Below are positions 4,298 through 13,455 of a DNA stretch of 64,000 nt, one piece after another (within the stretch, counting starts at the first letter, position 1; every line of letters begins with the position of its first letter). Position numbers and translations under genes: made by a program. The stretch is from a virus. The DNA lies in the IMG/VR virus record IMGVR_UViG_3300037247_000847, positions 1 to 64,000 of that record, one strand, 5' to 3'. The notes below the pieces were generated by a model. It was not told the DNA's origin. It saw only the letters and a list, made by a program, of their open reading frames with translations, and ran no database searches.

Positions 4298-4792
4298 TTA
4301 TTCTGATTTTGATAACTCTCTCAGTAACCTCGAAACAACTGCCTCTACGTACATAGTGATGCCTGTGTTCTTGCTTTCTCTATTTCCAGCGACATTAAGT
4401 ATCTCAATGTTGTTCCTTTTTATCCACTTCACCAACCCTGAAATTTCTCGGATAGGTGATCTACGGTTCTCTATACTATATCGGATCCTTTTTATTGGAC
4501 GCTTGTGCCTACGACACAGCTGAAAGGTAAGTCTTGCCCCCGGTGAATTGGTGCTACCAAACCACAAGGTACCGTCGCTACCTAAAACATTACGCTTGGT
4601 GCGGGGAGGATAGGTTGGGGACTTGGTCTCCTTAAGTTTGTATTGTTTACCAAGTATCTTTTTAGGACCAGCCTCAGTACGGAAACCTTTAGGAGCCCAC
4701 CCTCCTGTCTCGATGCCTGGTGCAGTGTACGCACCAAACAAACCACCCATGTCTGCTCCGGTTTGACCTCCGGAAATGACTTTCTTTATCAT
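4298..4792 (-). CDS. SLOG-fold (circularly permuted YpsA / 'putative molybdenum carrier') protein
   Basis: The protein begins MIKKVISGGQTGADMGG. The SGGQTGAD loop is the signature of the circularly permuted YpsA branch of the SLOG superfamily, often labelled putative molybdenum carrier. SLOG proteins bind nucleotides or nucleotide-derived ligands; in conflict systems they act as sensors or effectors. Usual length is about 150-170 residues and this one is 164. I chose the ATG at 4792, placed after GGGAG at good spacing, rather than the ATG at 4807, which overlaps the preceding gene. Ligand and role in the phage are unknown. Confidence 0.75.
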   Translation of the reverse strand: MIKKVISGGQTGADMGGLFGAYTAPGIETGGWAPKGFRTEAGPKKILGKQYKLKETKSPTYPPRTKRNVLGSDGTLWFGSTNSPGARLTFQLCRRHKRPIKRIRYSIENRRSPIREISGLVKWIKRNNIEILNVAGNRESKNTGITMYVEAVVSRLLRELSKSE

Positions 4793-4794
4793 AA

Positions 4795-4986
4795 CTACTT
4801 CTCCCATAATTTTCGCTCTTCTCGTCGTTCCTTCTCAACTTTGGCTGTCCACTTTGGCTTTTCCTTTTCCCACTCCTGCAAGAATAGTATACGTTGACGA
4901 GCAATATCACGATTCCGTTCACGTAAGTTACGTACCCATTCTGGTACTAAATGATCCGGCACGTTAGAGTAATCCCTAATACTCAT
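4795..4986 (-). CDS. Hypothetical small charged protein
   Basis: A 63-residue protein (MSIRDYSNVPDHLVPEWVRN..) that becomes a highly charged helix in its second half (EKEKPKWTAKVEKERREERK). It lies between the Cys-rich gene (one-base gap) and the SLOG gene on the same strand, and its short overlap with those frames fits a compact operon. No family recognised; a nucleic-acid or protein adaptor is only a guess. Confidence 0.6.
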   Translation of the reverse strand: MSIRDYSNVPDHLVPEWVRNLRERNRDIARQRILFLQEWEKEKPKWTAKVEKERREERKLWEK

Positions 4987-4987
4987 A

Positions 4988-5236
4988 TCACTCTCCTATG
5001 ACTATCTTTTCAGTTGGAAACGCAGAATTAGGAACATACGCGTGTTCGTGATCTACGGTGTGATAACGTAAGACCGCTGCATCGTCTTTAAATGTAATCC
5101 AGCTTTTTACTGCAGGATAAACGGTCTTGCCACATTCTGGGCAGTGATTAGGTAATCTAGGATTTATCCAACAGAGTTGATGACCACAACACTCCATTAC
5201 AATTAAGCGAAATGGTATTCGTTCGATTACTTTCAT
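4988..5236 (-). CDS. Small putative zinc-ribbon protein
   Basis: An 82-residue protein with Cys-Cys-Gly-His near residue 16 and a CPECG knuckle near residue 34. Together they could hold one zinc ion. The rest is beta-rich. The Shine-Dalgarno is TAGGAGGAGATTATG, the operon's standard box, and hammerhead HH1 lies directly upstream, so its message should begin at the ribozyme cut. Function unknown; zinc-ribbon phage proteins often bind nucleic acids or polymerases. Confidence 0.65.
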   Translation of the reverse strand: MKVIERIPFRLIVMECCGHQLCWINPRLPNHCPECGKTVYPAVKSWITFKDDAAVLRYHTVDHEHAYVPNSAFPTEKIVIGE

Positions 5237-5254
5237 AATCTCCTCCTATTGGTT

Positions 5255-5317
5255 TATCTCATCAGTACTAGAATAACCAATTCTAGTAGACCAAGACTAC
5301 CTGTCTTGGTTTCGATA
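5255..5317 (-). ncRNA. Hammerhead ribozyme HH1, type II
   Basis: In order on the minus strand: GAAA, stem III CCAAGAC/GTCTTGG with loop AGGTA, cleavage triplet GTC, stem I TACTAGAAT/ATTCTAGTA with loop TGGTT, core CTGATGA, then GATA, which pairs with TATC ahead of GAAA (open stem II). The loop TTGGTT is complementary to AACCAA just before the Shine-Dalgarno. Predicted cut is between 5289 and 5288. Element E1 lies immediately upstream. Confidence 0.93.
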
Positions 5318-5321
5318 CGGT

Positions 5322-5427
5322 TAGACCTATTTTAGGACCGCCTCCAAGGCCTGCAGACGAGGATTTGACCCTTCAAGGGTAAAAACCCTACCTAATTTAG
5401 TTTCGTTGGTCTACAGACGGTCCTAGC
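5322..5427 (-). ncRNA. Repeated structured element E, copy 1
   Basis: About 105 nt on the minus strand, differing from copy 4 (63.1 kb, plus strand) at only 2 of 93 core positions. Outer stem TAGGACCG/CGGTCCTA and inner stem GTAGAC/GTCTGC enclose a core where ACCC can pair either with GGGT before it (loop TTTT) or with GGGT after it (loop TTGAA). It lies between a stop codon and hammerhead HH1. Function unknown. Confidence 0.75.
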
Positions 5428-5437
5428 CTGGTTTCGG

Positions 5438-5596
5438 TTATTTCTTCTTTTTACCTCTCATCAATCTCTCGTGCTCCCGCTGGAGCTTGTCGATCGCCTT
5501 TCGTTTTTGTGTAGCTTCATCCTTGACCCGACTACGATACCTCTTGTCGATCTTTGTCCAGAAGCGACGTTTGGCCTTGGTTTGTGCGGCGGTCAT
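5438..5596 (-). CDS. Small basic protein, 52 residues
   Basis: A short ORF starting MTAAQTKAKRRFWTKIDKR and ending in a lysine run (RGKKKK). Its ATG overlaps the TGA of the preceding gene (ATGA), a strong sign of coupling. It is highly basic and helical, suggesting nucleic-acid binding. It is one of several small KR-rich proteins in this operon. No homologue recognised. Confidence 0.6.
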   Translation of the reverse strand: MTAAQTKAKRRFWTKIDKRYRSRVKDEATQKRKAIDKLQREHERLMRGKKKK

Positions 5597-5865
5597 AATG
5601 TTTTATTCACTTCTTCAGCCTTTTTAAGTGCGTCAGCGTGTTCGCTCTCGACTGAGATACGGATTGCATTTAGCACTTCACCCACTGTCAATGTAGGCAG
5701 ATCGGCGATCATATCGATCGCACCTACGACTGCAGTAAGGGTTAGAATGTCGGCCTCGGGTTGCGGGACGTTATGGTACTCAGTGAGTTCGTGTGCCGCG
5801 CCTCGGATGCAGAGACGCACGGCCCCTTGTAACTCGTTGAGGATATGGTTATAGATTGGTAGCAT
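5593..5865 (-). CDS. Hypothetical small helical acidic protein
   Basis: A 90-residue, mostly helical, slightly acidic protein (MLPIYNHILNELQGAVRL..). Standard Shine-Dalgarno TAGGAGGAG; hammerhead HH2 lies 25-100 bases upstream. Its stop overlaps the start of the 52-residue basic protein. The acid/base pairing of adjacent coupled small genes could mean they bind each other, but this is inference. No family recognised. Confidence 0.6.
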   Translation of the reverse strand: MLPIYNHILNELQGAVRLCIRGAAHELTEYHNVPQPEADILTLTAVVGAIDMIADLPTLTVGEVLNAIRISVESEHADALKKAEEVNKTL

Positions 5866-5889
5866 TTTGATCTCCTCCTATATTTGAGA

Positions 5890-5966
5890 TACCTCATCAG
5901 GCTGTAGTCTCTCATACTACAGCGACCACATATCAAGTAATACAACTTGATATGTGGTTTCGGCTC
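5890..5966 (-). ncRNA. Hammerhead ribozyme HH2, type II
   Basis: GAAA; long stem III CCACATATCAAGT/ACTTGATATGTGG; GTC cleavage triplet; stem I GCTGTAGT/ACTACAGC with loop ATGAGAG; core CTGATGA. Open stem II is short (GGT/GCC). Loop bases TGAGA match TCTCA upstream of the Shine-Dalgarno. It starts at the stop codon of the basic 131-residue gene. Confidence 0.9.
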
Positions 5967-6360
5967 AATCATGGGTAAATAGATCGTGTAGACGACGACG
6001 TAGTCTTTTCATTTTGCGTTTATTTGCTGCTTCCAGCCTCTTTTTAGTAGAGGGACTTAGTCTCTTTCTACGTGCCCTCCTATCTTGTTTCTCGTTGAAT
6101 ATCCTCCGACTTTTTGTGGTCCATGGAAGATGATTTGGACGTTTAGGTTTGTTGCTAACTACAGGTTCCTGTTCTACCCACTTTTTGGCACGACCCTTCC
6201 GCTTTTTTAGTCTAGGACCTTTTTTGATTAGCTTGCGAGGTCCTTTACCTCTTGGCCGTTTGATGGGTTTGACTTCAGCAGTGGTTTTGACACCATCAGC
6301 GATAGCTGGAGGACAATTCTTTACCTTAGTCTTTTTGGAGCGGGTGGACTTCTTAACCAT
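5965..6360 (-). CDS. Very basic KR-rich protein
   Basis: A 131-residue protein of which nearly half is Lys or Arg, with Pro-rich spacers (KRPRGKGPRKLIKKGPRLKK, then RRARRKRLSPSTKKRL). This is typical of disordered nucleic-acid-binding or condensation proteins. Shine-Dalgarno AGGAGAGGG. It follows the HTH gene closely and has no hammerhead of its own, so the two form a unit between HH3 and HH2. The exact role is unknown. Confidence 0.65.
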   Translation of the reverse strand: MVKKSTRSKKTKVKNCPPAIADGVKTTAEVKPIKRPRGKGPRKLIKKGPRLKKRKGRAKKWVEQEPVVSNKPKRPNHLPWTTKSRRIFNEKQDRRARRKRLSPSTKKRLEAANKRKMKRLRRRLHDLFTHD

Positions 6361-6377
6361 TTTCCCTCTCCTGATTT

Positions 6378-6686
6378 CTAAAGTTTTTCGATTAGAGTGA
6401 TGGGTGTAACGACGGCACCAAGTCCGGTAGCAACCTTAGTGATGGTTTCTTCTTGCTCACGTGGGCAGCGAATAAGAAGTGTGGATTGTTTTAAACCACC
6501 CATCCGCCGAAGGATCCCTTCAGCAGCAATCTTTGTCCAGTAAGGACAAGGCATGCCTCTAAGCCAATTAGATATCGAAGCTATATCCACGCCAAAAGCT
6601 TCGGCGATCTGCTGGGTAGTAAGACCAGTATCGCGAAGTTTTTGTAGATGCATGTTGGACTCAGCCTTCTTGTGGGTCTTAGTCAT
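6378..6686 (-). CDS. HTH DNA-binding regulator
   Basis: A 102-residue protein with a clear helix-turn-helix at residues 15-45 (LRDTGLTTQQIAEAFGVDIA then SISNWLRG), of the Xre/homeodomain-like type. The remaining half could serve for dimer or ligand contact. Phage early operons often carry such small regulators. It has the standard SD and hammerhead HH3 upstream. Operator sites are not known. Confidence 0.75.
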   Translation of the reverse strand: MTKTHKKAESNMHLQKLRDTGLTTQQIAEAFGVDIASISNWLRGMPCPYWTKIAAEGILRRMGGLKQSTLLIRCPREQEETITKVATGLGAVVTPITLIEKL

Positions 6687-6704
6687 AATCTCCTCCTATG
6701 TGAC

Positions 6705-6768
6705 TTGTCATCATCAGATACTAAGTAGTCATCTTAGTGTGACCAAGACTACCTGTCTTGGTTTCGAC
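6705..6768 (-). ncRNA. Hammerhead ribozyme HH3, type II
   Basis: GAAA; stem III CCAAGAC/GTCTTGG, loop AGGTA; GTC; stem I ACACTAAG/CTTAGTAT (one mismatch), loop ATGACTA; core CTGATGA; stem II GAC/GTC with one extra T. Loop TGACT pairs with AGTCA before the Shine-Dalgarno, a different sequence from HH1 but the same pairing. It ends one base from the stop codon of the metallopeptidase/VWA gene. Confidence 0.88.
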
Positions 6769-6769
6769 T

Positions 6770-7987
6770 TTAGTTTATCATCACCATTTCTCCAAATGGT
6801 ATTTCTCTTGCTCGACATTCAGCCGGAATGGTCCAGAGCACTGGAAAGGGTGGCGGAACCTTTGGGAATGATCCGTAAGTGTCAGTCAGATAGATCATAC
6901 CCTTTGGTGTGATACACCTTTCTTCTAACCAAGAGAAGGTTGGTAGAAAGCTTGTACTACCACCACCATAGGTACGTCCCGGCTTAATTGGTAGGTCTTC
7001 TTTACCATATTCGTCAACGTGCTGTACTTTCACATCCACGTACATGATGTGTAACTTACGGAACTTTAGCACGGAGGCGATCTTGGAGACCTCACCAAGA
7101 AATTGTGGGATGTAACGTAGCGTTGAGCCAGACGTATCTAGCACTACGACAAACTCATCTACACCTTCACTCTCAAGTCCTGGCAGGTATATGTCTTGAT
7201 TTAAGAAGCGGCGATCAGGTACTAACCAAGTGAAGTCATCCTGATTGCAGTTCTCCATGAACCTTTCGAGTACCTGTTCCCAACGGATCTTGGGGTTCAG
7301 GATCTCTTCGACTAGTTCATCGAGACTACCAGGTAGCTTCCCCTGAGCCTTGGCGAAGTTCATGGCTTGAGCAATTTGCATCAGGGCTTCAGCTTCATCA
7401 AAATCTGCACCTGATAAAGCTGCGGAAGATGGTTGAGAACCATTCTCGTTATAATCATCCTGGAGACCGGTGAGGCCGGTCTCCGGCTTTTGATCTTTCT
7501 GATCCTGATTTGGTTGTGAAGGATGATCGTGAAGACCACCGCATCCACAGCCTCCCTTTTCTTCGGCCTGCTTGTTGGCCGGATCATCAGGGTCTTGTGA
7601 TAGAATGTTGTAGATCTTCTCTGCATCCATCCCTCGGAACCGATCGTCAATCAGGTAATCGTCTCCTAATTTTAGACCGCTGTCCTGGAGATACAGATTG
7701 ATCCTGTAGTCACAGGCGATATTCCAGCGCTTGGGATCTCGAAGACCTCGACGGAAGCTGTCGAGGAACATCTTGTGTCCACCCTCGTGAGCAAGATCAG
7801 TGACGAGAATGGTCTCGTTCTGCTGCTCTACGTAGTCTGGATTGAAAAACAACCTAACTCCATCTGTCACCATCGTTTGGATAACAGTGGAGGGTTGTAT
7901 CTCAAAGCCCAATATTAGGCTTCCCCAGAAGGGATACATCCTAAGCAGCCTGGTTATGCACCTGTCGACTTTCATTTGTGCATTCAT
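6770..7987 (-). CDS. Metallopeptidase-like / VWA-domain protein (DUF2201-like)
   Basis: A 405-residue protein. The N-terminal part carries LVTDLAHEGGHKMF, a His-Glu-x-x-His-like zinc site as in the putative metallopeptidase domain of DUF2201 proteins. A Cys-Gly-rich linker (GGCGCGG) follows near residue 148, and the C-terminal part is VWA-like, with the metal-ion-dependent adhesion motif DTSGS and the threonine-bearing YGGGSTS. In bacteria such proteins pair with a MoxR AAA ATPase, and a MoxR gene lies 1.6 kb upstream in the same operon. It probably works as a metal-dependent chaperone or remodelling partner of that ATPase. Confidence 0.85.
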   Translation of the reverse strand: MNAQMKVDRCITRLLRMYPFWGSLILGFEIQPSTVIQTMVTDGVRLFFNPDYVEQQNETILVTDLAHEGGHKMFLDSFRRGLRDPKRWNIACDYRINLYLQDSGLKLGDDYLIDDRFRGMDAEKIYNILSQDPDDPANKQAEEKGGCGCGGLHDHPSQPNQDQKDQKPETGLTGLQDDYNENGSQPSSAALSGADFDEAEALMQIAQAMNFAKAQGKLPGSLDELVEEILNPKIRWEQVLERFMENCNQDDFTWLVPDRRFLNQDIYLPGLESEGVDEFVVVLDTSGSTLRYIPQFLGEVSKIASVLKFRKLHIMYVDVKVQHVDEYGKEDLPIKPGRTYGGGSTSFLPTFSWLEERCITPKGMIYLTDTYGSFPKVPPPFPVLWTIPAECRAREIPFGEMVMIN

Positions 7988-8009
7988 TTTCTCCTCCTAT
8001 ATTTGAGAT

Positions 8010-8077
8010 GTCTCATCAGGTTGTAGTCTCTCACACCACAACGACCACGCCCCGTTTGCACGAGACGTGGTTTCGAC
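8010..8077 (-). ncRNA. Hammerhead ribozyme HH4, type II
   Basis: GAAA; stem III CCACG/CGTGG with a larger, partly paired loop; GTC; stem I GTTGTGGT/ACTACAAC, loop GTGAGAG; core CTGATGA; stem II GAC/GTC. Loop TGAGA is complementary to TCTCA before the SD. It lies upstream of the metallopeptidase/VWA gene. Confidence 0.9.
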
Positions 8078-8084
8078 TTTAGTC

Positions 8085-8330
8085 TTAATTTGGTTCTTTG
8101 GAGGTAATGATCTCAGCGCAACGAGCTAGGGCATCGTCGGTCATTTCAATCATTGAACCCAGACGATGCCTTAGCACCAAGAGATCCTTAATTAGCAGTC
8201 TGGGCTTACCATATTTGGTCTTTTGGTAACACCGTTTTACAGCTTCAGTGACATCACTAGCTTGGTAAAAGAGACCTCCGCTGCTGGTAGTAAAATCACC
8301 GATTTTGTTGTCTAGTGTTCTCTTAGTCAT
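8085..8330 (-). CDS. Hypothetical protein, coupled to the 302-residue gene
   Basis: An 81-residue protein, mixed alpha/beta, starting MTKRTLDNKIGDFTTSSGG. Its ATG overlaps the stop of the preceding 302-residue gene, so they are translated together without a ribozyme between them. Together with that gene it sits between MoxR and its VWA partner, so it may belong to the same complex. No family recognised. Confidence 0.6.
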   Translation of the reverse strand: MTKRTLDNKIGDFTTSSGGLFYQASDVTEAVKRCYQKTKYGKPRLLIKDLLVLRHRLGSMIEMTDDALARCAEIITSKEPN

Positions 8331-9235
8331 GAGATGTAGCCCTTCATGGATTTCAGGATCGCGTCTGCCGATTTGGCAACCTCCTTGCGATACTTAGGAT
8401 CGTTTCTGAGAGCCTTTACATCGCTGACCGAACAGATTTCCTTTTCAGTCTGCTTGATCATCGCCGCGATCTTAGGATCGTTTAGGACGTTCAGCGATGG
8501 TAGAATTTCAACCAACTCCTGGATGTTACCGATCAACGAGTCCCTGAAGACCGCATCTTTCTCGTGCAGCTTCTCTTGAACGTGTCTCAGCTGTTCATAG
8601 AGACGTATGATTGGTGCCCGGAACGCGTCCTTCATATTGTTCTGGAAGTCTGCGAACATCTGCTTTTTGAGATCCTCAGAAGCATCCGCTGACATCTTGA
8701 CCCTAAAATCATTCGGGTCCTGGATAGGAGAAGTCCGGATGTGGATACCAAACTTGGTCCGGACCCGATTAGGTTCAGGATAGTCGTCTGCGTTGAACAT
8801 ATCACCGAGACCCTTTTTATAGTCTCCTAAACCAGCATGCCACTGTTCTTTGTACTCAGCAACAAACTCATCAGCGGCTTTCATGGCTTCGCGTTGCTTC
8901 TCCCCGATGACTTCCGTGTACTTGAAGTACATGTCAGCCGGAAGGAGACCAACTCCTTCCTCCCAAGGGAGCGTATAGTATTTGTGCAGCTTACGACACT
9001 GGCGGGACAGCTTTCTAAACGTGTCGAGAGCATCACTCTTGAGAAGTTGCTTGGTGAACTTCCCAAGCTCGGCATCTGAGTTCTTACTCTTTGCCACTTC
9101 CATAGCTATCTCACTGTCGTTCCGCTTGGCACCCCAACGGTTGATTTTGAGCCTAACGAGCATGGCTCGTGTACTCAGATCACTTGGGGTAGCCTTTGTC
9201 TTAGCTGACTTCGTGGTCTGCTTTGACTTACTCAT
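8327..9235 (-). CDS. Hypothetical helical protein in the MoxR/VWA operon
   Basis: 302 residues, lysine-rich, predicted mostly helical with coiled-coil stretches. The N-terminus is a basic tail (MSKSKQTTKSAKTKATPSD). No enzyme motif is visible. It lies between MoxR (upstream) and the metallopeptidase/VWA gene (downstream). MoxR-VWA systems usually include extra subunits, so it may be an operon-specific adaptor or substrate. Standard SD; hammerhead HH5 upstream. Confidence 0.65.
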   Translation of the reverse strand: MSKSKQTTKSAKTKATPSDLSTRAMLVRLKINRWGAKRNDSEIAMEVAKSKNSDAELGKFTKQLLKSDALDTFRKLSRQCRKLHKYYTLPWEEGVGLLPADMYFKYTEVIGEKQREAMKAADEFVAEYKEQWHAGLGDYKKGLGDMFNADDYPEPNRVRTKFGIHIRTSPIQDPNDFRVKMSADASEDLKKQMFADFQNNMKDAFRAPIIRLYEQLRHVQEKLHEKDAVFRDSLIGNIQELVEILPSLNVLNDPKIAAMIKQTEKEICSVSDVKALRNDPKYRKEVAKSADAILKSMKGYIS

Positions 9236-9254
9236 AATCTCCTCCTATTGGTTT

Positions 9255-9315
9255 GTCTCATCAGTGTCAAAGTAACCAACCTTGACAGACCTAGACTACC
9301 TGTCTAGGTTTCGAC
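9255..9315 (-). ncRNA. Hammerhead ribozyme HH5, type II
   Basis: GAAA; stem III CCTAGAC/GTCTAGG, loop AGGTA; GTC; stem I TGTCAAGGT/ACTTTGACA, loop TGGTT; core CTGATGA; stem II GAC/GTC. Loop TTGGTT pairs with AACCAA before the SD. Compared with HH1, stem III and stem I differ in sequence but keep all pairs. Confidence 0.93.
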
Positions 9316-9318
9316 TTA

Positions 9319-9504
9319 CTACCACCTAGCAATATATTCTAAGATTGCCTTGTGTTTGGAGTTGAGGTTCAACACTATTGTTTCACTGGGTTTCTCATCA
9401 GTGAGACATTGACGACAGTCGATGCGTAATTCTACCTTGTCATTGGGATTGCACAACTCCATAGCGTCCCGCATTTCCTTTACGGTTGGCATATTGTTTT
9501 CCAT
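9319..9504 (-). CDS. Hypothetical small protein
   Basis: 61 residues (MENNMPTVKEMRDAMELC..), with one helix followed by beta strands. It is preceded by the standard TAGGAGGAGATTATG box and by a two-hairpin element that resembles a hammerhead without its catalytic core. No family recognised. Its place between MoxR and the 302-residue gene suggests it is produced with that set. Confidence 0.55.
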   Translation of the reverse strand: MENNMPTVKEMRDAMELCNPNDKVELRIDCRQCLTDEKPSETIVLNLNSKHKAILEYIARW

Positions 9505-9520
9505 AATCTCCTCCTATAGT

Positions 9521-9572
9521 CTTGATGCGATAGTGCATCACACAGCGCTCCTACCTGAAGCGCTGGTTGCCA
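9521..9572 (-). ncRNA. Hammerhead-like double hairpin lacking the catalytic core
   Basis: This spacer has the position and outline of a hammerhead: hairpin CAGCGCTTC/GGAGCGCTG with the same AGGTA loop as HH1, HH3, HH5 and HH6, then hairpin TGATGC/GCATCA, then the standard SD. But CTGATGA is absent and GAAA is replaced by GCAA. It is probably an inactive relative or another structure in the same role. Confidence 0.5.
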
Positions 9573-9574
9573 CA

Positions 9575-10693
9575 CTACAACATGTATTCTTGATTCTCCG
9601 TCGCCCATTGAACAAAAGCTGATGTTTCTAAGAGGCTGTTACCACGGTTCTTCACGAGAAGCATACCGAGGACTTCTACTGGCTTTTGGAACTTGTTGAT
9701 GAGTTCGACGAAGTTGTCCATTCGACCAGCATCGACGATGTCTGCCGTCGAAGTAACGAGAGCGAAGGCAACGTCAGGTCGCTGGGAAATTGGAGCAAGC
9801 CCAGCACTCACGACCTGTTTCGTTTGATCATTCCAAACATAACGCTCGAATGTCATGCCGTCGAGTGTGCTAGGATCATCGAGGATATCTTCGGGATCTG
9901 GCAGGTGAGCCCACAGCTTCAGAAAAGCTAGGAACTCAGTTGCGAAACCCTTGTCAGCTGCTCTCGAGATTAGCTCGAAGGCTGTACTCTCAGTGACAGC
10001 ACCTGAAGCCAGAAGCTGACCAACGTGATGCACCGTTCTTGGTGACCGGCTGTTTTCCAGTCCAGGCTTCGGACTAAAGTTCATCAGCATGTCCCGTTTC
10101 CAAGAGATGAATGCAGGCAAGATCGCTGGCATTGGTTCCTTGCGATCGAGCAGGCCAACATCATCGCACTGCGAAGCCCATTGCACCCAACTGTCAACAT
10201 TTACCTCTAGGTGAACGATGGTCTTGAACCTAGACTTGACATGCTCAAGGATCGGGTTGACGCCGGACTTGTCTTGGGCTCGGTTGGTTGCTGCACAGAT
10301 GCGAATATGATCACTAATTTTATTCTCGCCAATCTGACGAGCGTGGATTAGGTGACAAGTAGCATTCTGGGTAGCTGTCGAGCCTTGTCCAAAATCATCC
10401 ATGAAGAACACGGTTGGTTTCTTGGCCGTAACGAGCCGACGAAGATCGCCGATAGGAACGAAGTCCCACTCGGCTGGCTTCTTACCCGTTGCGGGCCGCG
10501 TCTGGGCTGGTATTCCACCGTAGTCGATTGGACTACGTACTGCTGGATGGGTGATGATAAGGTCCATCCCGACGTTCTTTGCCGCTTGCTCAATAAGGGC
10601 AGTCTTGCCGATGCCTGGCTCTCCTTCCGCTAGGAAGGATAACCCAGACTTGAACATGGTCTCGGCAAAGTTGATGAAATCTTGATAGTTCAT
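9575..10693 (-). CDS. MoxR-family AAA+ ATPase
   Basis: 372 residues. The Walker A motif GEPGIGKTAL is at residues 23-32, Walker B reads TVFFMDDFGQ, and sensor 1 is CAATNR. This is the compact MoxR layout. MoxR ATPases act as chaperones that remodel or insert metal into partners together with VWA proteins; the VWA/metallopeptidase gene of this operon is the likely partner. The gene has the standard SD (TAGGAGGAGAAAATG) and hammerhead HH6 upstream. Confidence 0.9.
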   Translation of the reverse strand: MNYQDFINFAETMFKSGLSFLAEGEPGIGKTALIEQAAKNVGMDLIITHPAVRSPIDYGGIPAQTRPATGKKPAEWDFVPIGDLRRLVTAKKPTVFFMDDFGQGSTATQNATCHLIHARQIGENKISDHIRICAATNRAQDKSGVNPILEHVKSRFKTIVHLEVNVDSWVQWASQCDDVGLLDRKEPMPAILPAFISWKRDMLMNFSPKPGLENSRSPRTVHHVGQLLASGAVTESTAFELISRAADKGFATEFLAFLKLWAHLPDPEDILDDPSTLDGMTFERYVWNDQTKQVVSAGLAPISQRPDVAFALVTSTADIVDAGRMDNFVELINKFQKPVEVLGMLLVKNRGNSLLETSAFVQWATENQEYML

Positions 10694-10712
10694 TTTCTCC
10701 TCCTATTGGTTT

Positions 10713-10773
10713 GTCTCATCAGTGCCAAGATAACCAATCTTGACAGACCTAGGCTACCTGCCTAGGTTTCGAC
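10713..10773 (-). ncRNA. Hammerhead ribozyme HH6, type II
   Basis: GAAA; stem III CCTAGGC/GCCTAGG, loop AGGTA; GTC; stem I TGTCAAGAT/ATCTTGGCA, loop TGGTT; core CTGATGA; stem II GAC/GTC. Loop TTGGTT pairs with AACCAA before the SD. The element touches the stop codon of the 65-residue gene upstream. Confidence 0.93.
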
Positions 10774-10971
10774 TTATATCATTTCATCACCACCGTCGAT
10801 TCTCTTATAGTTAACTGGGTCATCGGTTTCGAGGGTGTGATACCCAGTAGGTTGTGTCCAAACCATGAAACGCGCCGCTGCGCTGCAGTGAGCTTCCAAC
10901 TCGGTAGCAAAACGTTGAGCATTACCCACTACTTCACCGTTTTGAAATTCAAACATTGGTCGGTACGACAT
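10774..10971 (-). CDS. Hypothetical small protein
   Basis: 65 residues (MSYRPMFEFQNGEVVGNAQR..). The short beta-hairpin start followed by a helix (RFATELEAHCSAAARFMVW) resembles small phage proteins with an ubiquitin-like or DUF-type fold, but I cannot assign one. Standard SD; hammerhead HH7 upstream, HH6 directly downstream, so after both cuts this gene would be a monocistronic message. Confidence 0.6.
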   Translation of the reverse strand: MSYRPMFEFQNGEVVGNAQRFATELEAHCSAAARFMVWTQPTGYHTLETDDPVNYKRIDGGDEMI

Positions 10972-10993
10972 AATCTCCTCCTATATTTGAGAT

Positions 10994-11054
10994 GTCTCAT
11001 CAGGCCGTGAGCTCTCACCTCACAACAAGCGGGGTTACTCACCCCACTTTCGAC
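10994..11054 (-). ncRNA. Hammerhead ribozyme HH7, type II, overlapping a coding end
   Basis: GAAA; stem III AGTGGGG/CCCCGCT; cleavage after CTT instead of GTC; stem I GTTGTGAG/CTCACGGC, loop GTGAGAG; core CTGATGA; stem II GAC/GTC. Loop TGAGA matches TCTCA before the SD. The first 16 nt, including GAAA and one arm of stem III, are also the last codons and stop of the 198-residue gene. Confidence 0.87.
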
Positions 11055-11635
11055 TTTTTGGTTAAACGCTTCCTGCGTTTGGTAGGTTGTATATCGGCAA
11101 GATGTCTGCGCCGCTTTGGCTTAAAGAGCTGATATTGCCGTGAACTCGGCTTTTCAACATCACCTTTTTGCACCATGTTTTTTAGGCAGCGACGTGCTTC
11201 TCTTGTTTCTAGCCCTGTCTTTTTGCAGACTTGACCTACAGTGGTAGCACCATTCTTCAAAGCAGCGAGTATCAGTTCGCTGTGCGCTGATTGTGTAATC
11301 CCTTTACGTATTTTTCTGCCTTGGCGTTGGTCTAGCCGTTCTCGTCGTTCTGATTTTCTTAGATCACGCAATACTTTATGATGCCGAGCGCGTTTGGCTC
11401 GACCTCTCATTTCTTTTTGGGTGTCCTCACGATCTCTTTGCGCTTGTTTTCTCTCCTGATCTAGTTCGGCCCAGGATTCCTTGTGACGCTTCCACCGCTT
11501 CTTTGTCCACCGTTTGCGGTCTAAAAGCTTTGGTAGTGGGTAGTTGCTGAGGTACTCATTAGCCTCTTTGACCCTCAAGGCAACAGGACCTAGCTCTTTG
11601 GTGCTAGAAAGATGTTTCCTGATTCGAGTAGGCAT
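11039..11635 (-). CDS. Basic winged-helix-like protein
   Basis: 198 residues, very rich in Lys, Arg and Glu in the first 115 residues. A region at about 120-165 looks like a winged helix (HSELILAALKNGATTVGQVC, then KKTGLETREARRCLKNMV), as found in DprA-tail or Z-DNA-type wHTH domains. The C-terminus is again basic. It is probably a DNA- or RNA-binding regulator. Its last codons are part of hammerhead HH7, so the protein's C-terminal Ser-Lys-Val-Gly is constrained by the ribozyme. Confidence 0.65.
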   Translation of the reverse strand: MPTRIRKHLSSTKELGPVALRVKEANEYLSNYPLPKLLDRKRWTKKRWKRHKESWAELDQERKQAQRDREDTQKEMRGRAKRARHHKVLRDLRKSERRERLDQRQGRKIRKGITQSAHSELILAALKNGATTVGQVCKKTGLETREARRCLKNMVQKGDVEKPSSRQYQLFKPKRRRHLADIQPTKRRKRLTKKSKVG

Positions 11636-11650
11636 TAGATGTCCTCACCT

Positions 11651-11869
11651 TTATTTGGAGCGTTTCGATTTTTTCTCAGGCTCTTTCTTTTGATTTACAC
11701 CAATACACTTGTCAGCCTCAGCCTTGGTGGTAAAGCGTTCCCGTAATGGGTTCATAGTGTCTTTCGTATTGTGTACCTGGTATCCGAAGATCATACTAGG
11801 ATCTTTGGTGTGTGAATGCTTGACCACCTTCAGGCCTTTTTCCTTATTGTGGCTTACCGTTGTCAACAT
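11651..11869 (-). CDS. Hypothetical small basic protein
   Basis: 72 residues with a short beta-rich middle (MIFGYQVHNTKD) and a KKEPEKKSKRSK tail. It may bind nucleic acid. Standard SD and hammerhead HH8 upstream; it is followed at once by the wHTH gene, so the two share one processed message. No family recognised. Confidence 0.6.
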   Translation of the reverse strand: MLTTVSHNKEKGLKVVKHSHTKDPSMIFGYQVHNTKDTMNPLRERFTTKAEADKCIGVNQKKEPEKKSKRSK

Positions 11870-11888
11870 AATCTCCTCCTATTGGTTT

Positions 11889-11968
11889 GTCATCATCAGT
11901 GTCAAAGTAACCAACTTTGACAGACCCGGCGTATTCTTGTTAGTGGTCTTTTCTAACCGGGTTTCGAC
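11889..11968 (-). ncRNA. Hammerhead ribozyme HH8, type II
   Basis: GAAA; stem III CCCGG/CCGGG with an enlarged loop of about 25 nt; GTC; stem I TGTCAAAGT/ACTTTGACA, loop TGGTT; core CTGATGA; stem II GAC/GTC with one extra T as in HH3. Loop TTGGTT pairs with AACCAA before the SD. Confidence 0.9.
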
Positions 11969-11970
11969 TT

Positions 11971-12273
11971 TCACACGAAGACGATGATAGGTTGTCCTGT
12001 TGGTAACATGACAGGATCAGATTGTGATTCGCCATAGGACTCAGCGTAGGAGTTCTCGTACATACCATATTTGATAGGAACGCGAACGTGCCCTGGTCGG
12101 GTCTTCCAGGTTTTAGGTTTGCCCGATACACGACATTCTCTAACATCCCCAAATCGATCAAGGAACGTAAGAACGTAACCAGGACGCAGGTTTTGAGCTT
12201 CACCTACGATCATGAAGCGGTATTCTTGATACCCATCGAACCGTGGTGGGTAATACCCTGATTTGGCTTGCAT
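11971..12273 (-). CDS. Hypothetical beta-rich protein
   Basis: 100 residues from the ATG at 12273 (MQAKSGYYPPRFDGYQEYRF), chosen because GAGAGGACG lies at good spacing and the upstream gene ends 14 bases before; a longer in-frame reading from 12342 would overlap that gene. The sequence is beta-rich (FLDRFGDVRECRVSGKPK, then HVRVPIKYGMY), compatible with an OB- or Tudor-like barrel. No family recognised. Confidence 0.6.
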   Translation of the reverse strand: MQAKSGYYPPRFDGYQEYRFMIVGEAQNLRPGYVLTFLDRFGDVRECRVSGKPKTWKTRPGHVRVPIKYGMYENSYAESYGESQSDPVMLPTGQPIIVFV

Positions 12274-12286
12274 CGTTTTCGTCCTC

Positions 12287-12511
12287 TCACGTATGTGCGT
12301 AACCATCTTCCTCAATACCAATCCACATTTTCTGCCATTCAATCATGATGCATGTATCACCGAAAGCAAATGTGGAGCGCGAAAGAAATTCGTCGAACGT
12401 TTCGTTGGTGTAGTAGTTACGGGTCCTGAGTTCGCTGACTGCTACACGACCGTCTTCCATGGGTTGGCGTTGAAAAATCTCGAACAGGGTCTCGTGCTGT
12501 TGCGGGGTCAT
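12287..12511 (-). CDS. Hypothetical small acidic protein, first gene of the early operon
   Basis: 74 residues (MTPQQHETLFEIFQRQPMED..). The start is helical with Gln and Glu, then a mixed fold with WQKMWIGIEEDG near the end. The standard SD (TAGGAGGAGACCATG) and hammerhead HH9 lie upstream. It is the first protein-coding gene after the structured non-coding block. No family recognised. Confidence 0.6.
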   Translation of the reverse strand: MTPQQHETLFEIFQRQPMEDGRVAVSELRTRNYYTNETFDEFLSRSTFAFGDTCIMIEWQKMWIGIEEDGYAHT

Positions 12512-12530
12512 GGTCTCCTCCTATTAGTCT

Positions 12531-12601
12531 ATCTCATCAGTGTCAGGAGACTATTCCTGACAGACCAGGGTAGGTGATTGCTCACCTACCCTGATTTCGA
12601 T
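12531..12601 (-). ncRNA. Hammerhead ribozyme HH9, type II
   Basis: GAAA; stem III CAGGGTAGGTGA/TCACCTACCCTG; GTC; stem I TGTCAGGA/TCCTGACA, loop ATAGTC; core CTGATGA; stem II GAT/ATC. Loop TAGTCT pairs with AGACTA before the SD, a third independent version of the loop pairing. An anti-SD sequence (TCTCCTCCT) lies directly upstream and would be separated from the SD by self-cleavage. Confidence 0.92.
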
Positions 12602-12995
12602 TTATAGGAGGAGGAGATTTTTTCCCAACCGGGATAGTCCACTTACGAAGTGGAGGGTAACACCCTACGCGCTGCACGTGACCAATTTTCTTGTACTCGT
12701 TCCACCCCGTTGCGGTTCAAAGCGTTATACCACTTGGGGTAGCCATCGGCCTAGGTCCAGTATTGTTGCCCGTTAATGCTGGATTGACTACCAGCGGCGG
12801 TCAGCAGACAACCCGGACTAAGGTCTCTGGGGATCGTTCCACGTGTGCTTACGCAGGTTCACCCGGCTGACAGCGACTTCGCGGGAATTCCTTTCCCATC
12901 GCTGGGCCTCCTGGGGGTTCCGGCTATCCTCGCCACTACGCGTGAGGGGTGAGCTTTGCGCTTCTTCTCCCAGGGCCGCCCCATTCCCAGAGGCC
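12602..12995 (-). ncRNA. Candidate large structured non-coding RNA
   Basis: About 400 nt without a credible ORF, GC-rich against its flanks and dense in inverted repeats: CCACTT/AAGTGG (12639-12653), GGGT/ACCC (12655-12665), CCAGTATT/AATGCTGG (about 12757-12782), and CAGCGA/TCGCTG enclosing GGGAA/TTCCC (12871-12904). Hammerhead HH9 sits at its minus-strand 3' end and would release it, so I favour the minus strand. Its 3' end reads AAAAAATCTCCTCCTCC, an anti-SD. It is comparable in place and size with large phage RNAs such as GOLLD or ROOL, but I did not recognise either. Confidence 0.5.
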
Positions 12996-13407
12996 TGGAT
13001 AACTAAATTCTTATCTAACTATCCTAATACTATTGTGCGCCCTTTTAGGGACTTTCGCAAGGACTAAATAGCTCCCGAAAAGGTCAAAGAATTCAAGGAC
13101 TTACGGGGCTATTGGCACCACTATCTGGGCTATTGGCACCACGTCCTAACGAATTTTACCACTTTTTGATGGCAGGCAAAAGCGAGCATATTTCAAAGGC
13201 TTAGAAGCTTTTCGGGCTTTCTATTATCCCTTTGTAACCAGAAAGTGTGGTTATTGTGGTAATTAGTGTGTTCTAACTAATACACTAATAAAACACTAAC
13301 CAGCAAAATCAATGGCTTGTGGTAATAGACCACCCACGTTTAGTATAAAAGCCTACGTGGGGCCTTTGCGTCCTACGTTGTCTCAACCTTCATGTCATCT
13401 TGCGACT
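12996..13407. promoter_or_regulatory. Divergent intergenic region with direct repeats
   Basis: AT-rich stretch between the leftward early block and the rightward genes; no ORF. It holds two 16-bp direct repeats (13106-13121 and 13127-13142), a run of ACACTAAT-like repeats (13265-13305), and a TATAAAAG box inside a CCACGT/ACGTGG hairpin (about 13332-13358). These are plausible promoters, operators or origin iterons, but none is proven. Confidence 0.45.
13106..13142. repeat. Two 16-bp direct repeats
   Basis: GGGCTATTGGCACCAC occurs at 13106-13121 and 13127-13142, separated by five bases (21-bp period, two helical turns), which would place bound proteins on the same face of DNA. Confidence 0.8.
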
Positions 13408-13455
13408 GTCAGGGTAGATTTCTCTCCGGAGAGGTCTGCCCTGACTTCTTTTTGA
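13408..13455 (+). terminator. Rho-independent terminator
   Basis: GTCAGGGTAGA pairs with TCTGCCCTGAC around an inner CTCTCC/GGAGAG hairpin and is followed by TTCTTTTTG on the plus strand. It would stop a short plus-strand transcript starting in the AT-rich gap, which has no ORF, so a small RNA may be made there. Confidence 0.75.

Follow-up and report, generated by a model that had tools for sequence, protein, structure and literature searches.

Why does a single phage operon carry a self-cleaving RNA motif at one gene junction after another, and what becomes of its message? The locus lies in a stretch of 64,000 nucleotides (nt), hereafter the window, which comprises positions 1 to 64,000 of the 96 kb IMG/VR virus record IMGVR_UViG_3300037247_000847. 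An initial annotation had proposed that nine type II hammerhead ribozymes punctuate one early operon of this virus. We consider it probable, at roughly four chances in five, that nine cis-acting type II hammerheads cleave the leftward polycistronic transcript and so divide it into units that hold one or two genes each, apart from a longer final unit. This reading draws on the motifs, on their covariation, orientation and position, and on their recurrence in other phages.

All nine hammerheads are present. They lie on the minus strand, which the initial annotation had left unstated, within one leftward operon and span 5248-12602, with the first base of CTGATGA at 12540, 11899, 11003, 10722, 9264, 8019, 6717, 5900 and 5265. 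A structural scanner for GAAA, stem III, UH, stem I, CTGANGA and stem II, allowing at most one mismatch per stem, returned exactly nine matches in the window. Applied to 60 first-order Markov versions of the window, 3.84 Mb in all, it returned none. The search with the Rfam Hammerhead_II model (RF02276) that had been suggested as a check succeeded in part: three of the nine exceed the gathering score of 37 bits, one reaches 35.9 bits and five are missed. Because Rfam misses these five, a covariance model (R1) was built from an alignment (A1) of 23 hammerheads of other contigs, none from the window. R1 recovers nine of nine with E values of 7e-11 to 1.5e-3 (247 kb searched) and finds no further match elsewhere in the 96 kb record (the window, L015 and L016). 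Searches of 4800-13300 for other Rfam RNA families gave matches at chance level only.

The copies share one layout. Read 5' to 3' on the minus strand, a stop codon is followed by 3-10 nt, AGUC, GAAA, the stem III hairpin, UC and the cut, and then by the stem I hairpin, CUGAUGA, GAC, a pseudoknot strand, AUAGGAGGAGAUU and AUG. The core of CUGANGA, GAAA and a UH site occurs in type II order in all nine, H17 being C in eight and U in one. Stems I (7-9 base pairs, bp) and III (6-13 bp) are closed and stem II (3-4 bp) is open. All are paired, with one C-A mismatch in stem I of hammerhead 7 (6717). In every window copy loop I can also form a pseudoknot of 5-7 bp with the strand just before the Shine-Dalgarno (SD) sequence. 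The pseudoknots fall into four classes (UUGGUU/AACCAA, UGAGA/UCUCA, UGACU/AGUCA and UAGUC/GACUA), and the best match is found within the class. Permutation within genomes gave p values of 4e-4 for the window, 5e-5 for a distant relative (IMG/VR contig 3300032105_000042, 79.8 kb, with about 20 shared proteins at 26-56% identity), 1.5e-4 for the array contig G046, and less than 5e-5 for both G037 and G009.

It had been claimed that the sequences differ while pairing is kept, and that the ribozymes are therefore maintained. The covariation of helices and pseudoknot bears this out, as do hammerheads kept at the orthologous sites of Streptomyces phages. In A1, whose seeds were picked partly for a pseudoknot of at least 4 bp, standard pairs make up 97.6% of the pair cells, and both sides have changed in 108 cells against 28 expected from shuffles; in slid controls the paired fraction drops to 32-40%. 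Among 213 hammerheads not chosen for the pseudoknot, one of at least 4 bp is found in 91% (51% with tails permuted) and one of at least 5 bp in 69% (27% with tails permuted). It could be argued that the hairpins are simply RNase III sites, decay barriers or pause sites for which catalysis is irrelevant, and the same SD is indeed combined with two hairpins and no hammerhead core in one spacer of the window and in two of the relative's. However, more than 200 elements retain GAAA, NUH and CUGANGA while their helices are free to vary, and hairpins alone would need none of them, which makes this explanation extremely unlikely.

The position of the copies points to message processing by the ribozymes. 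The array serves a leftward operon of 17 open reading frames (ORFs; 4298..12511, minus strand) that is divergent from the terminase and structural genes. The proposed intergenic punctuation stands, since all nine copies share one strand and each lies either at a gene junction or ahead of the first gene. The stricter claim, with every copy placed after a stop codon and before the SD of the next gene, is fully true of six, in which the stop is 3-10 nt before GAAA, and has three exceptions: the stop codon upstream of copy 11003 falls within stem III, 13 nt into the ribozyme; copy 12540 has no gene upstream and precedes the first gene of the operon; and copy 5265 is preceded by 120 nt of non-coding sequence. 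Junctions with a hammerhead measure 67-201 nt in the window whereas the others measure -4 to +17 nt, a spacer with two hairpins excepted. From cut to start codon the distances are 51, 53, 55, 52, 52, 55, 54, 58 and 52 nt, and elsewhere 50-66 nt (median 55). An ORF of at least 60 codons ends near GAAA in 196 of 213 hammerheads, at a median of 4 nt upstream, and 133 of 177 unique hammerheads have an SD, a start and an ORF within 90 nt downstream, against 12.7% at random sites. Units of one to three genes had been expected; units 1-8 hold one or two genes, and the last unit runs on. In a weak scan of the operon, promoter-like matches did not exceed chance expectation and no minus-strand terminator was credible, which fits ends made by cutting.

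The individual copies, all on the minus strand, are as follows. Hammerhead 1 (12523..12602), at the start of the array, scores 40.8 bits with Rfam and 50.4 bits with R1, and has GAAA at 12598-12595, a predicted cut at 12563/12562 and the pseudoknot UAGUC/GACUA. Hammerhead 2 (11881..11969; R1 41.5 bits, E 1.9e-8; predicted cut 11923/11922; UGGUU/AACCA) has a long, partly unpaired stem III and an extra U between A9 and stem II. Hammerhead 3 (10983..11055; R1 23.4 bits, E 1.5e-3; predicted cut 11027/11026; UGAGA/UCUCA), the weakest copy, has the cleavage site CUU and not GUC. Hammerhead 4 (10705..10774; Rfam 40.6 bits, R1 46.8 bits; predicted cut 10746/10745; UGGUU/AACCA) precedes the AAA ATPase gene (9575-10693), and is followed by hammerhead 5 (9247..9316; Rfam 38.7 bits, R1 47.7 bits; predicted cut 9288/9287; UGGUU/AACCA). 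Hammerhead 6 (7999..8078; R1 36.7 bits; predicted cut 8043/8042; UGAGA/UCUCA) precedes the gene of a DUF2201/VWA protein (6770-7987). Next are hammerhead 7 (6698..6769; R1 31.6 bits; predicted cut 6741/6740; UGACU/AGUCA) and hammerhead 8 (5880..5965; R1 33.2 bits; predicted cut 5924/5923; UGAGA/UCUCA). Hammerhead 9 (5248..5317; R1 40.0 bits; predicted cut 5289/5288; UGGUU/AACCA) is, at 35.9 bits, just under the Rfam gathering score. Other minus-strand products of the operon are a TrmB-like helix-turn-helix protein (11039-11635) and a cpYpsA SLOG protein (4298-4807).

Type II is the only hammerhead permutation whose cut separates two closed hairpins, and in this transcript the cut would fall between those of stems III and I. 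Cutting would most likely take place during transcription. The upstream unit would then have the stem III hairpin at its 3' end, terminated by a 2',3'-cyclic phosphate. The new 5'-OH would sit immediately at the stem I hairpin, with which the downstream unit opens; CUGAUGA, the pseudoknot strand and the SD come next in that order. Every cut would leave a uniform leader of 51-58 nt. Such hairpin-capped ends could insulate the units, fix the leader and shield the RNA from 3' exonucleases and from decay that depends on a 5'-phosphate. Cleavage and its end groups in this phage we infer from established hammerhead chemistry, and the benefit, be it insulation or stability, we only infer. In 103 kb of array loci all 51 Rfam ribozyme hits are type II. 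This exclusive composition suggests a reason for the topology, namely that no other permutation leaves both ends at the cut with a hairpin. Tandem hammerheads have been shown to cut during in vitro transcription, and a triple from Agrobacterium also cuts in E. coli (PMC3088659).

Several observations weigh against processing by nine active ribozymes. Four of 18 hammerheads that conform to the consensus were inactive in vitro (PMC3088659). Hammerhead 3 (11003) is weak, with 23.4 bits, a CUU site and an overlap with the upstream stop codon, and in copies 6717 and 11899 an additional U follows A9 of the core. In the Streptomyces phage Spernnie the pseudoknot rule does no better than permutation (p 0.76). 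The presence of arrays is also patchy, most relatives that share the PolA polymerase having none: a related PolA occurs in 38 further records, of which three carry arrays, of 12, 11 and 4 copies, and the others, fragments in many cases, carry none. The extra U between A9 and stem II is found in all 12 hammerheads of G046 (L239, G046:33000-43500) and in most of those of G037, where it is a consistently kept variant of the core. The hammerhead of the viroid CChMVd is known for an extra core nucleotide.

Directly before the first ribozyme lies a second feature of the array. Within the 96 kb record the SD sequence ATAGGAGGAG is confined to the ten array genes, apart from one occurrence on the opposite strand at 12604. 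This last site belongs to an anti-SD leader, AUCUCCUCCUCCUAU (12604..12618, minus strand), which starts 20 nt upstream of the GAAA of hammerhead 1. The complement of the array SD, ATCTCCTCCTCCTAT, directly precedes the first ribozyme in both the window and the distant relative. In the relative, ATAGGAGGAG is found on the SD strand only at array genes (11 sites) and twice on the opposite strand, one of these two sites being the identical 15-mer before its first hammerhead (L010:10403-10417). The 15-mer is the sole significant similarity between the upstream non-coding regions of the two phages (E 4e-4), and the exact signature occurs in no other viral contig except the near-identical L005. It pairs over 10 bp with each of the ten array SDs at about -17 kcal/mol. 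Because the complement stands just before the first ribozyme, the first cut would release an anti-SD leader RNA. We tentatively propose, with rather less than even confidence, that hammerhead 1 releases a leader RNA whose AUCUCCUCCUCCUAU can pair with an SD that the genes of the punctuated operon all share and that is almost confined to them. A self-cleaving RNA would in that case divide the message and at the same time supply a translational regulator for it, acting in cis on gene 1 or in trans on the set.

Pairing exclusive to the array was rejected: 66 other GGAG..ATG sites have a median of -11.4 kcal/mol, but at least one reaches -20.7 kcal/mol. The leader is not a general rule of arrays, as none was seen in the others. 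Neither is it the SD of a rightward gene, no plus-strand start codon following it in either phage. At 13 further loci a similar string precedes GTCGAAAC and no hammerhead was found; these loci thus serve also as a control of the scanner.

The same leader bears on another account, in which the ribozymes act mainly on translation: the fold would hide the SD until cleavage or unfolding, cleavage would be a start switch, and the separation of units would be a side effect. In favour of this, a 10 bp helix between anti-SD and SD encloses the whole ribozyme in the predicted fold of hammerhead 1 (z -6.1), and in the array the 3' strand of the pseudoknot ends only 1-4 nt before the SD. However, this clamp is present at the first copy only, and the pseudoknot strand stops short of the SD and can persist after the cut. 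The loops are short and hold no aptamer-like domain, so there is no sign of regulated cleavage. A chiefly translational role is possible but unlikely.

Arrays of this kind are not confined to one phage. Nine copies had been thought exceptional, a view that has to be abandoned: at least eight other phage genomes or contigs hold arrays of 9-12 hammerheads, and clusters were published in 2011 (PMC3088659). The distant relative has ten hammerheads in a similar array. Its cargo genes are mostly replaced, only the TrmB-like gene being recognisably shared (25.7%), so the comparison within the lineage of the window consists of one distant relative with mostly different cargo genes and a retained 10-copy array. 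A second candidate relative, L005, was set aside as the same phage (99.9% identical). Queries with the DUF2201 protein and the ATPase found nothing else close, and megablast against 50,697 phage records gave no match. The unrelated array G011 holds 10 hammerheads in 3.4 kb. A pattern scan of viral contigs matched at least 120 stretches, which indicates that such hammerheads are common. Among cultured Streptomyces phages, Spernnie, Sentinel and Caelum carry 10 each and Animus 11, in regions where no ribozyme is annotated.

These phages also allow the fate of single copies to be followed. In five Streptomyces phages, four gene families have an intact upstream hammerhead in at least four of the five, and three of these families have it in all five. 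The length and sequence of stem III vary among the orthologous copies and the pairing is kept. According to the initial annotation, relatives that had lost the core but kept their genes intact would have spoken against the ribozymes; no such loss was seen at the matchable Streptomyces orthologues. The sequence classes (four UUGGUU, three UGAGA) and the uniform SD indicate that cassettes of hammerhead and SD do duplicate, and one might see in them a selfish element that spread along the operon and is useless to the phage. Against this, core and pairing are kept while the stems diverge, orthologous copies persist in the five Streptomyces phages, and the copies occupy exactly the interval from stop to SD. 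A purely selfish cassette is very unlikely.

The array can be compared with several known systems. It shares with Rfam RF02276 the core, three helices with stem II open, a short stem II and the pseudoknot between loop I and the 3' tail, and differs in the five copies that the model misses, in the extra U after A9 of two copies and in one CUU site. Perreault et al. described type II hammerheads in 2011 with their pseudoknot, reported clusters flanking prophage genes and put forward the processing hypothesis (PMC3088659). In their clusters (the A. tumefaciens triple, A. caulinodans and C. scindens), as in the window, hammerheads separate single genes or short blocks in phage DNA. Cleavage of those hammerheads was demonstrated in vitro, and the triple was also shown to cut in E. 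coli. The window differs in having nine copies (elsewhere 10-12) in one operon, all type II and joined to an SD with a constant leader, in the uniform SD confined to the array, and in the anti-SD leader before the first copy. Since the 2011 paper covers both the clusters and the hypothesis, the array belongs to a known kind, of which the SD-joined geometry and the anti-SD leader make it a variant. The punctuation idea is thus supported and not new, having been published in 2011 (PMC3088659). In the literature, with subscription papers outside the scope of the search, no description was found of arrays of this size or of the anti-SD leader, which we regard as a further feature.

That the cut ends are meant for rejoining, into circular or spliced RNAs, is a different possibility. 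A 2',3'-cyclic phosphate and a 5'-OH are the substrates of RtcB-type ligases, and pairs of retrozyme hammerheads do yield circular RNAs (PMC7761336). In the phage record no RtcB was found, although a host enzyme could serve; the units carry ordinary genes, and Perreault et al. detected neither spliced nor circular products (PMC3088659). Rejoining is accordingly most unlikely, and separation of the message into units remains the preferred reading.

For such separation the processing of T7 would be the closest functional parallel. The T7 early transcript is cut by RNase III into mono- and dicistronic messenger RNAs (PMC4858673). Both are polycistronic phage messages of about 7 kb with co-transcriptional cuts at several sites, which in the window are predicted. 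In T7 the enzyme is a host protein and in the window it would be the RNA itself, and the end groups differ. Insulators of the RiboJ type likewise use self-cleavage to standardise the 5' leader and leave a hairpin; they are engineered, have another topology and have no upstream unit to protect. In haloviruses HF1 and HF2 a hammerhead variant lies upstream of an early helicase gene, 13 nt before the start codon, and the mapped 5' end is at most 3 nt from the predicted cut (PMC3088659). The halovirus feature differs from the array in being a single copy with a variant core. The role of prokaryotic hammerheads has been called an open question (PMC6155905). As related arrays occur in other phages, this would be a recurrent, little-tested way of message handling and not a one-off. 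The constant geometry of arrays of 9-12 copies (stop codon and ribozyme about 4 nt apart, then the SD; about 55 nt between cut and start) predicts 5'-OH ends at ten fixed sites in one operon. This can be tested in cultured phages, with 10-11 copies present in each of Spernnie, Sentinel, Caelum and Animus.

Some further features of these loci were noted. A tenth spacer of the operon (9505..9574, minus strand) carries the array SD and two hairpins without a hammerhead core and precedes a gene of 61 amino acids (aa; 9319-9504); it has no Rfam match to a known ribozyme. Two more spacers of this kind lie at L009:1225-1302 and L014:1088-1153, both on the plus strand. All three have a long hairpin and then a short GAURC...GYAUC hairpin directly before the SD, and are possibly dead hammerheads or a different processing element. 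In Spernnie and Sentinel there are abutting pairs of hammerheads (L166:5135-5269 and L169:3855-3993), from which a fragment of about 68 nt would be set free. The 120 nt of non-coding sequence before hammerhead 9 (5318-5437, minus strand) follow a 52 aa ORF and have a closing helix (z -1.6); this stretch could be a small RNA with a ribozyme-made 3' end. Between the divergent operons, about 0.85 kb (12619-13455) is without convincing genes and has a direct repeat, GGGCTATTGGCACCAC, near 13100-13140. It is likely to be the promoter region of the array operon.

The ATPase of the operon is MoxR-like and is encoded in the same operon as the DUF2201/VWA protein, in a separate unit bounded by ribozymes. 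It matches proteins of Pseudomonas phages including KPP21 and PA26 at 24-25% identity. A transfer RNA (tRNA)-like gene lies at 2049-2124 on the minus strand (Rfam tRNA 48 bits), to which ARAGORN assigns no anticodon. The PolA polymerase of the record (L015:14011-16755, about 77010-79754 of G000, minus strand) is fused to an N-terminal domain resembling uracil-DNA glycosylase.

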